Origin: Banduia mediterranea
GTDB taxonomy: Bacteria; Pseudomonadota; Gammaproteobacteria; Nevskiales; Nevskiaceae
Assembly (NCBI RefSeq): GCF_031846245.1
Contig: NZ_JAVRIC010000001.1
Coordinates: 1-64,000, forward strand
Reading direction: 5' to 3'
Length of the DNA stretch: 64,000 bases
Shown: positions 9,813 through 11,900 of the stretch, piece after piece
Position numbering within the stretch: position 1 is the first letter of the stretch
How the letters are laid out: each line of letters begins with the position of its first letter
The notes under the pieces: model-generated
Seen by the model: the letters and a program-made list of their open reading frames with translations, nothing else
The model's database searches: none
Told to the model about the DNA's origin: nothing
Position numbers and translations under genes: made by a program

Positions 9813-10253
9813 TCAGCGCGTCTCCAACCAGAACGTAACCGGGCCGTCATTGATCAGAGACACCTGCATATCCGCGCCGAAACGACCGCAGGCCACATCA
9901 CGATGCTCGTCGCGCGCGCGATTGACGACGTCGGCGAACAAGCGCCGCGCCGCGTCCGGCGGCGCGGCCGTCGTGAAACTGGCGCGCATGCCCCGGCGCG
10001 TATCGGCCGCCAGCGTGAACTGCGGCACCAGCAACAATCCGCCACCATGTTCACGCAGGCTGCGGTTCATGCGTCCGTCCGCATCGGTGAAGACGCGATA
10101 GCCCAGCAGTCGTTCAACCAGACGGCGTACATCGGTCTCAGCATCGTCGGGACGCACACCCACGAGTACCAGCAGACCGGGACCGATAGCGGCGATACGT
10201 TCGCCGTCGACGTCCACCGCTGCGGAGCGCACTCGTTGTAGCAATCCGATCAT
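9813..10253 (-). CDS. dtd: D-aminoacyl-tRNA deacylase
   Basis: A 146-residue Dtd, which frees tRNA mischarged with D-amino acids. The start MIGLLQRV, the motif QFTLAADTRRG (usually preceded by Ser, here Pro) and the C-terminal cross-subunit motif NDGPVTF are visible. The ATG at 10253 fits the family length; 27 extra in-frame residues upstream are rejected because they run into the neighbouring regulatory region. It is read away from the tandem sRNA locus that begins about 30 nt upstream of its start. Confidence 0.95.
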   Translation of the reverse strand: MIGLLQRVRSAAVDVDGERIAAIGPGLLVLVGVRPDDAETDVRRLVERLLGYRVFTDADGRMNRSLREHGGGLLLVPQFTLAADTRRGMRASFTTAAPPDAARRLFADVVNRARDEHRDVACGRFGADMQVSLINDGPVTFWLETR

Positions 10254-10283: not shown

Positions 10284-10351
10284 CGTAGGGAATTCCCTAC
10301 AGACCGTGTCGTCACCATCCGACTGTACTTGCACGGGCCCGCGCCCATACT
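10284..10351 (+). promoter_or_regulatory. Promoter of sRNA 1 with GacA-type upstream activating sequence
   Basis: A dyad CGTAGG-N6-CCTACA (10284-10301) has the geometry of the GacA/UvrY upstream activating sequence known from Pseudomonas (TGTAAG-N6-CTTACA), matching 9 of 12 defined bases. The inner 16 bases form a perfect palindrome (10285-10300). TCCGACTGT lies 16 nt downstream (10318-10326), and 19 nt beyond that a -10 like hexamer CATACT (10346-10351). The same blocks occur at identical spacing before sRNA 2. There is no good -35, as expected of an activator-dependent promoter. Naming the activator is inference. Confidence 0.65.
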
Positions 10352-10357
10352 GACATC

Positions 10358-10479
10358 AGAGTCACCAAGGATCAGGACGCAGGGATGGGTCCGGTGACTT
10401 CTCCAAGGATTGGAACAGCGCAGGAAGCGCGCTAATACCGACCGACCGTCAGGCAAGAGGCCCAACGGTCGGTTTTTTT
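10358..10479 (+). ncRNA. Putative CsrA/RsmA-sequestering small RNA, copy 1 (RsmY/RsmZ-like)
   Basis: A predicted RNA of about 120 nt from near 10358 (seven nt after the -10) to the T-run at 10479. It holds six GGA triplets (10369, 10375, 10383, 10407, 10412, 10423). One is in the hairpin GCGCAGGAAGCGC, a sequence I recall from Pseudomonas RsmY, in which an AGGA loop caps a GC stem. Multiple GGA loops, the length, the activator-type promoter and the strong terminator together define the Rsm/CsrB class, which titrates the translational repressor CsrA/RsmA. There is no open reading frame. The 5' end is predicted, not measured. Confidence 0.72.
10441..10479 (+). terminator. Rho-independent terminator of sRNA 1
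   Basis: A perfect 9-bp stem, ACCGACCGT (10441-10449) with ACGGTCGGT (10465-10473), is followed by seven T residues. Confidence 0.92.
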
Positions 10480-10507
10480 CGTGGTGTCGGCGCCGGTGTT
10501 CGGATTT

Positions 10508-10575
10508 TGCGCGAAAAGTCCTACAACAAACATCGGCGCTGTCCGACTGTGTTGCCGCGATGGCGCGAGCACAAT
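10508..10575 (+). promoter_or_regulatory. Promoter of sRNA 2, homologous to that of sRNA 1
   Basis: CCTACA (10520-10525), then 16 nt, TCCGACTGT (10542-10550), then 19 nt, and a -10 like CACAAT (10570-10575). Blocks and spacings are identical to those before sRNA 1. The upstream half-site is poor here (TGCGCG), so the activator dyad is weaker than in copy 1. Confidence 0.6.
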
Positions 10576-10581
10576 AGCCGC

Positions 10582-10702
10582 CAGTCGCCAAGGACAAGGA
10601 GCACACGGAGGTTCAGGCGACAACCGCAGGATGCGGACAGGATTCGCAGGACAGCTTGAAAACGAACCGGCCATCGACAGGGAATTCGATGGCCGGTTTT
10701 TT
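10582..10702 (+). ncRNA. Putative CsrA/RsmA-sequestering small RNA, copy 2
   Basis: A predicted RNA of about 121 nt. Both copies begin with near-identical leaders, AGTCACCAAGGA in copy 1 and AGTCGCCAAGGA here (10583-10594). GGA triplets occur at 10592, 10598, 10607, 10629, 10635, 10640 and 10649, with an eighth in the terminator loop at 10681. Bodies of the two RNAs differ apart from the GGA motifs, as is usual among Rsm sRNA paralogues. There is no coding potential. Likely role: antagonist of a CsrA/RsmA homologue, redundant with copy 1. Confidence 0.72.
10665..10702 (+). terminator. Rho-independent terminator of sRNA 2
   Basis: A perfect 13-bp stem, AACCGGCCATCGA (10665-10677) with TCGATGGCCGGTT (10686-10698), loop of eight, ending in six T residues. 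Confidence 0.94.
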
Positions 10703-10901
10703 CGTGCCCGGATGCTCTCTTCGACGATACCGGAAATGAGCTACAGGCCACCGCGTGGGCACGCTGAGCTTTGCCCCCCCTACCGGCCGACAGGCGCGGG
10801 GTTCGCGCAAAGAGGCAAAGGCGCGAAGAACAGCCGTTAACCTGAATCACGCGCCGCGTGATGCCGACCGACCCGCGCGAATGCGAGCGCTGGGTGAGGG
10901 C

Positions 10902-10988: not shown

Positions 10989-11900
10989 ATGAAACTGCGT
11001 CTGGCGCGTTGGCTGTTGATGCTGAGCGGCTATCTGCCGTTGCCGCTGCTGCATGCCTGCGGCTGGCTGGTCGGACGGGTGCTGTGGTGGATTCCCAACA
11101 AGCCGCGTGCCATCACCCTGCGCCATTTGAGGCTTTGCCTGCCGGAACTCGATGACGCGCAGCGGCGACGGATCGCACGTGAAAGCCTGGGGCACATGGC
11201 GATGGCGGTACTGGAGGCCCCCGCGATCTGGTTCGGCCCGCAAGGCAGACTGCGCGCCTGGCTCAAGGATCCCGCCGCCGAGGCGGCATTGCGCGGCGCC
11301 TGCGCCGACGGCGGCACCATCGTGCTGTGTCCGCACCTGGGCTCCTGGGAACTGGCGGGCATGTTCTGCGCGGCGCAGGGGCAGATCACCTCACTGTACA
11401 AGCCGCAGAAAGGGGTGTTCGATCAGCTGATCCTCGAAGGCCGCCAACGGCTCGGTGCGCGGCTCGTACCGACGATCGGCAGCGGCGTCAAAGCCTTGCT
11501 CGAAGCCCTGCGCCAGGGCGAGATGATCGGCGTGCTGCCGGACCACGATCCACCGGCCGGCTCCGGCGTGTTCGCCCCGCTGTTCGGCATCCAGGCGCAC
11601 ACCACGGAACTGGTCAGCAAGCTCGCCGCACGCACCGGCGCCCCGGTATGGTTCTGCTATGCGGAACGCCTTGCGTTCGGCCGCGGCTTTCGTCTGCACG
11701 TGATGCCGGCGCCTGACGGCGTGGCCGACAAGACCCAGGGCGTCACCGCGATGAACCACGGCGTGGAACAATGCCTGCGGCACCTGCCCCAGCAATACTG
11801 GTGGAGTTACAAGCGCTACCGACGACGTCCGCCGGGCCAGCCGGACTTCTATAGGGCTGAAGGCCTGCGGACGCTCCCCGGAATCACCGATGCCGAGTAA
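10989..11900 (+). CDS. LpxL/HtrB-family lysophospholipid (lipid A) acyltransferase
   Basis: A 303-residue member of the LpxL/LpxM family, inner-membrane enzymes that add secondary acyl chains to lipid A or related lysophospholipids. An N-terminal hydrophobic segment (LLMLSGYLPLPLLHACGWL) anchors it. The catalytic HX4E motif is in CPHLGSWELAG, followed by GVLPDHDPP and APLFGIQAHTT, family features. The C-terminus has the conserved QQYWWSYKRYRRRP. Whether the acceptor is lipid A cannot be told. The ATG at 10989 is chosen because it precedes the membrane anchor; longer in-frame starts would run through the inverted repeat. It lies downstream of the two sRNA genes, read in the same direction but after strong terminators. 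Confidence 0.88.
   Translation: MKLRLARWLLMLSGYLPLPLLHACGWLVGRVLWWIPNKPRAITLRHLRLCLPELDDAQRRRIARESLGHMAMAVLEAPAIWFGPQGRLRAWLKDPAAEAALRGACADGGTIVLCPHLGSWELAGMFCAAQGQITSLYKPQKGVFDQLILEGRQRLGARLVPTIGSGVKALLEALRQGEMIGVLPDHDPPAGSGVFAPLFGIQAHTTELVSKLAARTGAPVWFCYAERLAFGRGFRLHVMPAPDGVADKTQGVTAMNHGVEQCLRHLPQQYWWSYKRYRRRPPGQPDFYRAEGLRTLPGITDAE

Follow-up and report, generated by a model that had tools for sequence, protein, structure and literature searches.

Among small RNAs of the rsmX/Y/Z and csrB/C kind, tandem copies have already been published: rsmX-1 and rsmX-2 of Pseudomonas brassicacearum, F113 and P. stutzeri are neighbouring copies of ~110 nt, lying ~100-130 nt apart and provided with upstream GacA sites (PMC7911923). 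The same study reports that the two RNAs carry six GGA each in P. brassicacearum, with ANGGA or AGGA in the loops, that rsmX-2 has a mapped 5' end and is GacA-dependent, and that a few mutations in the UAS of the P. brassicacearum rsmX-2 were proposed to explain its eight-fold lower expression (PMC7911923). Two other sources give the consensus bound by UvrY as TGTAAG-N6-CTTACA and place the UvrY site of the E. coli csrB at -183/-182, as its centre (PMC4682653), and mention a duplication of csrB in Vibrio (PMC6262261).

The locus described here, which lies in a window of 64 kb (the whole stretch of DNA that was analysed), is of this same kind of system. With PrrB/RsmZ (RF00166) and CsrB/CsrC it has in common the anatomy of a decoy with many GGA and the putative control by a regulator of the GacA/UvrY type; with RsmY (RF00195) it shares GGA loops, a terminator, an upstream GacA-type dyad and a hairpin. 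Unlike the rsmX pairs, the two units belong to a different bacterial order, match no sequence family, are found at dtd and have a dyad of the TGTAGG/CCTACA type, with three copies in the sister species. Their dyads lie at about -65 from the predicted starts, in contrast to the far more distant site described for csrB. Among the top matches listed from the open-access literature, with few subscription journals covered, neither a dtd-linked Csr RNA nor a Csr RNA of Nevskiales was found. A classic genome-wide prediction of CsrA-regulating RNAs may list relatives.

By score, the units are not members of the Rfam families RsmY or RsmZ. The covariance-model comparison that the earlier sequence-only reading had proposed for RsmY, PrrB/RsmZ and CsrB was run with Rfam over the whole window and returned nothing at gathering, and all the permissive matches were below gathering: 12.6 bits for RsmY vs the 57 required, 11.8 bits for PrrB_RsmZ vs 44, and no match to CsrB or CsrC among those listed up to E 10. 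The RsmY-like hairpin noted by that reading is borne out in copy 1, where GCGCAGGAAGCGC is letter for letter the Rfam RsmY consensus and stands inside the sub-threshold alignment. In a search for RsmY through 369 genomes of the class, one genome scored above the cut-off. At an RsmY locus of a sampled genome (L239), a TGTAAG-N6-CTTACA was seen by eye ~40 nt ahead of a -10-like stretch, and a rough scan of 12 of the 14 other loci from the RsmY search found no dyad above 9/12.

Layout of the two units between dtd and the acyltransferase gene

The two units stand head to tail on the plus strand, between dtd on the left (D-aminoacyl-tRNA deacylase; 9813-10253, minus strand, start codon at 10253-10251; PF02580, E 2.9e-50) and a lipid A acyltransferase gene on the right (10989-11900, plus strand, start at ~10989; PF03279, E 6.7e-46). 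Four ORFs of 80-129 aa overlap them and give no Pfam match.

In the first unit, a dyad with the 6-N6-6 geometry of a GacA site, CGTAGG-GAATTC-CCTACA, occupies 10284-10301 (CCTACA at 10296-10301) and agrees with TGTARG-N6-CYTACA at 11/12 positions. It is followed by the element TCCGACTGT at 10318-10326, by the -10-like CATACT at 10346-10351, 44 nt past the dyad, and by a predicted sRNA at 10358-10479, the last part of which (10440-10479) is a predicted intrinsic terminator. The second unit has the dyad TGCGCG-AAAAGT-CCTACA at 10508-10525 (9/12, with the right half CCTACA intact at 10520-10525), TCCGACTGT at the same offset (10542-10550), the -10-like CACAAT at 10570-10575, also 44 nt past the dyad, and a predicted sRNA at 10582-10702 with its predicted intrinsic terminator at 10665-10702. 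Each predicted RNA is ~120 nt long, with a start placed within +/- 3 nt. The spacings described earlier, 16 nt from CCTACA to TCCGACTGT and 19 nt from there to the -10-like hexamer, proved identical in the two copies when checked on the sequence, and CCGACTG is found 17 nt past the dyad in each. The announced six to eight GGA per copy come to 6 ahead of the terminator stem in copy 1 and 7 in copy 2, the eighth of copy 2 lying in its terminator loop, and the T-runs reach 10479 and 10702. At the units a simple scanner reported neither a sigma-70 promoter nor terminators, the latter being recognised from their fold and T-run, and a good -35 is absent from both promoters.

The dyad of copy 1 is the only zero-mismatch YGTARG-N6-CYTACA among the own-genome matches listed. 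The dyad of copy 2 is weak on its left half (TGCGCG), which suggests that the second copy is controlled less strongly or in another way.

Beyond the second terminator, the plus strand of the window retains at 10728-10745 what is left of a third promoter dyad, TACCGGAAATGAGCTACA, that had escaped the sequence-only reading. It was recognised by alignment with the sister genome (G001), which keeps a complete third tandem unit there (L015, 2412-2604). Short GCGCAAAG-GCAAAGG-like stretches are also present at 10805-10830, near the lost third copy, and again at L210 and L212, in its own and the sister genomes; they may be a dispersed repeat that played a part in losing that copy.

Motif density, predicted folding and divergence of the copies

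When both strands of the 64 kb were scored in stretches of 85 nt for the CsrA-type motif ([AC]AGGA, ACGGA or ANGGA), which was chosen after the units had been seen, the highest counts, 5 and 6, fell on the two units, and at most 4 was reached elsewhere. Dinucleotide shuffling gave P = 0.0024 for copy 1 and 0.0002 for copy 2, and the plain GGA counts were weaker, with mononucleotide-shuffle P values of 0.017 and 0.0043, respectively. The folding z-scores were -3.99 (copy 1) and -4.88 (copy 2), and GGA is mostly unpaired in the computed folds, namely 4/6 in copy 1 with P(unpaired) > 0.7 and 5/7 in copy 2 with P(unpaired) > 0.5. Several GGA motifs are thus predicted to be exposed in loops, as is characteristic of the Csr/Rsm class.

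The units are a tandem duplication of the rsmX type: they are adjacent and homologous, and each is equipped with an upstream site and a terminator. In an ungapped comparison, their promoters match best in exact register (50/110 identical at offset 224, next best 39/110), and the local alignment of the two RNA copies scores 28 vs a mononucleotide-shuffle mean of 16.9 (P 0.0005). The sister genome, the sole genome of the same genus returned by the searches, has both units at 96% identity. In a five-sequence alignment of the two species, compensatory changes that keep the pair occur at 13/35 consensus pairs, two of these 13 being located in the 5' stem around the multi-GGA loop; the hairpin counts in the second half of copy 2 are approximate because MAFFT aligns that half imperfectly. 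The register of the promoters, the homology of the RNAs, the covariation between paralogues and the third copy of the sister species all bear out the duplication first proposed from the spacings.

The GGA triplets are kept between the two species: 1/42 GGA bases differ, and that single change shifts a GGA without removing one. The interspecies differences are 4.1% and 2.5% for the RNAs, 8.0% for the acyltransferase stretch and 12.1% for the dtd-side leader, and dtd itself differs at 16/435 bases with no amino-acid change. The R1 model scores the five copies at 128.4, 126.8, 119.8, 118.3 and 104.9 bits, a match by construction. It finds no third copy in the own genome, and a divergent Csr RNA elsewhere would escape it. 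A DNA similarity search of 61 genomes reached the sister species alone; two further DNA matches of 41 bits (L004, L005) were judged chance on viewing.

The promoter at dtd in other genomes and the RNAs that follow it

Matches to dtd were obtained in 85/85 genomes of the order, and 84 of the upstream stretches were compared, L096 being omitted because its contig ends near dtd. L044 and L059 have shorter sequences, so that the later control stretches number slightly fewer than 84. Within 150 nt of dtd on the upstream side, 23/84 loci have a right half-site and, 43-46 nt beyond it, a -10-like hexamer, vs 1, 1, 1, 0 and 0 in five control stretches. Dyads of at least 11/12 against YGTARG-N6-CYTACA are found in 11/84 loci (five control stretches: 0, 0, 1, 0, 0) and dyads of at least 10/12 in 16/84 (control stretches: 1, 0, 1, 1, 1; shuffles: 1-3). 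These counts against controls are not probabilities, because the relatives are not independent. The promoter-bearing loci of the order span several families, and CCGAC, or its CGAC, stands in register 17 nt past the half-site in several other families (L034, L035, L055, L073, L080, L098, L134).

A wider search yielded 80 named loci, six of them likewise short (L108, L133, L142, L152, L155, L170). The half-site, spacing and -10 were found in 6/80 (controls 0, 1, 0, 0, 3), a weak count in which L114 and L036 come from a single genome, and dyads matching at 11 or more positions in 1/78 (controls 0, 0, 0, 0, 4), which is also weak as a count. By inspection, L119 and L169 (Sedimenticola), L124 (an Escarpia endosymbiont), L134 (Nitrococcus), L145 and L150 each have at dtd a dyad or half-site and, behind it, a terminated RNA containing 4-8 GGA, and the box with 6-8 GGA is found outside the order in L119, L169, L134, L145 and L150. 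The -10 boxes chosen by script for L169 and L124, at 62 and 64 nt, look wrong, and the -10 of these two loci is not placed with confidence. Searching 21 other sources with the R1 model left only L035 (E 0.0035) and L051 (E 0.02) below 0.05. Among the 85 genomes, six weak R1 matches outside the genus (E 8.8e-6 to 3.9e-4, including L225) were rejected, as they sit on a terminator that either adjoins a protein gene or is close to its end.

The conservation of the locus at dtd, a point that the sequence-only reading had wished to see checked, extends, as regards the promoter geometry, to these 23 loci of the order, only 9 of which have a GGA-rich RNA. These nine (L014, which is the window, L015, L034, L035, L051, L055, L077, L079 and L089) show at least 6 GGA ahead of a terminator in at least one unit, the transcript of L077 having 6. 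The other 14 (L016, L017, L029, L030, L032, L033, L036, L038, L040, L048, L073, L080, L086, L098) have at most 4 GGA or no recognised terminator, and the script rule found no terminator in L030, L048, L057 and L016. At L086 and L098, dtd is preceded by two Gac-type sRNA units in tandem, poor in GGA, which share a GGUUCUCCAGCC-like stretch ahead of the terminator; L055 and L073 also show a form of this stretch. As L086 and L098 hold two units each, tandem copies are not confined to a single family.

What was least expected is that, in seven related genomes, the half-site/44-nt promoter at dtd precedes an RNA of ~95 nt with 0-1 GGA (L029 1305-1402, L030 1330-1431, L032 1315-1422, L033 2004-2098, L036 2018-2118, L038 2002-2095, L040 1325-1423), as if the promoter had been kept and the payload swapped. 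These RNAs are otherwise divergent and contain an invariant C-rich core, ACATGG-UUUU(U/A)C(C/U)UCC, ahead of the terminator; the TTTTT inside the core was not taken as the transcript end in L029, L032, L033, L036, L038 and L040. Exact copies of the 16-nt core were found in 5/85 genomes among the matches listed, all at dtd. Against Rfam, this C-rich variant remained below gathering, with 36.8 of 41 for suhB/MmgR (L040) and 27.0 of 50 for the Betaproteobacteria toxic sRNA. The search for an extended mRNA target, GGAGGAAAAACCATG, in the seven genomes gave five zero-mismatch matches, all of them on the strand complementary to the RNA's own gene, and two places with 1 mismatch, one in G076 and one in G077.

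These RNAs bear on the first of the rival explanations, according to which the two units of the window would be Gac-controlled sRNAs acting mainly by base-pairing with mRNA, their GGA motifs being incidental or secondary. The recurrence of the same promoter ahead of a GGA-poor RNA with an invariant C-rich core speaks in its favour, as does the UUCUCC that copy 1 also contains. We consider it unlikely, given that the CsrA-motif density of the units is the highest of the window, that their GGA are retained between species and mostly unpaired, and that the C-rich core is absent from the own genome within 2 mismatches. A second rival sees in the units not independent sRNAs but leaders or attenuators of the acyltransferase gene downstream. 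The units are indeed on the strand of that gene and immediately upstream of it, and this reading is nonetheless very improbable in view of the two complete promoter-terminator units and of a further promoter-like TACAAT read on the sequence near the gene start. Moreover, dtd and the acyltransferase gene nearly adjoin in several relatives (e.g., L019, L020), and L119, L124, L134, L145 and L169 have the box and RNA at dtd with no acyltransferase homologue found in the fetched locus; in L150 the homologue is present, further away. A chance GGA cluster in G-rich intergenic DNA, or decaying functionless copies, would suit the mononucleotide-shuffle P of only 0.017 for the GGA of copy 1 and the loss of the third copy from the window genome, and is just as hard to believe in the face of the compensatory changes, conservation, register and synteny.

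CsrA, the Gac machinery and the proposed titration

The sequence-only reading had asked for csrA and gacA/uvrY homologues elsewhere in the genome. One CsrA is encoded (E 1.6e-24), of canonical sequence with VHREEI. The best GacA/UvrY candidate lies beside an ORF read as uvrC and scores 263.8 bits, under the NCBIfam cut-off of 280. The uvrC gene is the classical neighbour of gacA/uvrY. The best GacS/BarA candidate reaches 386.9 vs an NCBIfam cut-off of 890. In the order as a whole, CsrA is present in 69/85 genomes, namely in 22/23 of those with the promoter, the exception (G006) being 79% complete, and in 47/62 of the others. Two groups without the promoter lack a full-length CsrA: g5, with no match in 3/3 genomes, and g17, with no match in 8/14 and, in the remaining 6/14, shorter CsrA matches ending at position 42 of 53.

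Both units have an upstream dyad of the GacA/UvrY type, the geometry of which recurs in the order. Taken alone the dyad is unspecific, since reversed-pattern controls with at most 1 mismatch gave as many or more matches in 4/6 genomes, and fewer in two (49 vs 50 in G023, 37 vs 47 in G040). No further sRNA was recognised among 11 dyad places viewed in the six genomes searched. From the matches listed for the own genome, the places viewed besides the studied locus were L209, L210 and L219; some of the 11 precede protein genes. By eye, dyads of the TGTAGG-N6-CCTACA type were seen ahead of apparent protein genes at L214, L216, L217 and L218 (G001, G040), and they could represent a wider GacA regulon or the sites of another regulator with a similar site.

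Very probably, the locus consists of two Gac-controlled sRNAs of the Csr/Rsm type that sequester CsrA, arranged in tandem and diverged from each other, with three such copies in the sister species. This is in essence what the sequence-only reading had proposed, and it is the best-supported reading, in view of the covariation, the third copy, the csrA and GacA-like genes, and the fact that some other families and orders have at dtd a similar promoter and a GGA-rich RNA; the units may be, but need not be, the 'master decoy pair' of the lineage. We infer transcription of both units, GacA dependence, CsrA binding and titration, and a regulon affected by them, the most likely mechanism being the titration of CsrA by two Gac-induced decoys. 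Phosphorylated GacA/UvrY would bind the upstream dyad and drive transcription from the -10 placed 44 nt downstream. Each ~120-nt RNA would then fold into a 5' stem around several GGA, a short hairpin or two with (A)GGA in the loop, and the intrinsic terminator. Both RNAs together would offer about nine exposed sites to CsrA, titrating it from mRNAs.

With considerable reserve, one may also ask whether, in these gammaproteobacteria, the dtd-side stretch is a Gac-output locus of ancestral origin. In that possible, rather doubtful scenario, the promoter (dyad, CCGAC and 44-nt spacing) would have been kept and the payload would change from CsrA decoys, in two or three tandem copies, in some genera to a base-pairing RNA with at most 1 GGA and a C-rich, anti-Shine-Dalgarno-like core in others. 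If true, one signalling pathway would have switched its output, from protein titration to antisense control, at a single chromosomal position.

For the order Nevskiales, the two RNAs of the window are candidate CsrA antagonists. The synteny with dtd, combined with the promoter signature (dyad, 44 nt, -10), provides a handle for Csr RNAs missed by the Rfam models, and the loci with one, two or three copies and with a GGA-poor payload offer a natural series for the gain, loss and re-purposing of sibling regulatory RNAs.
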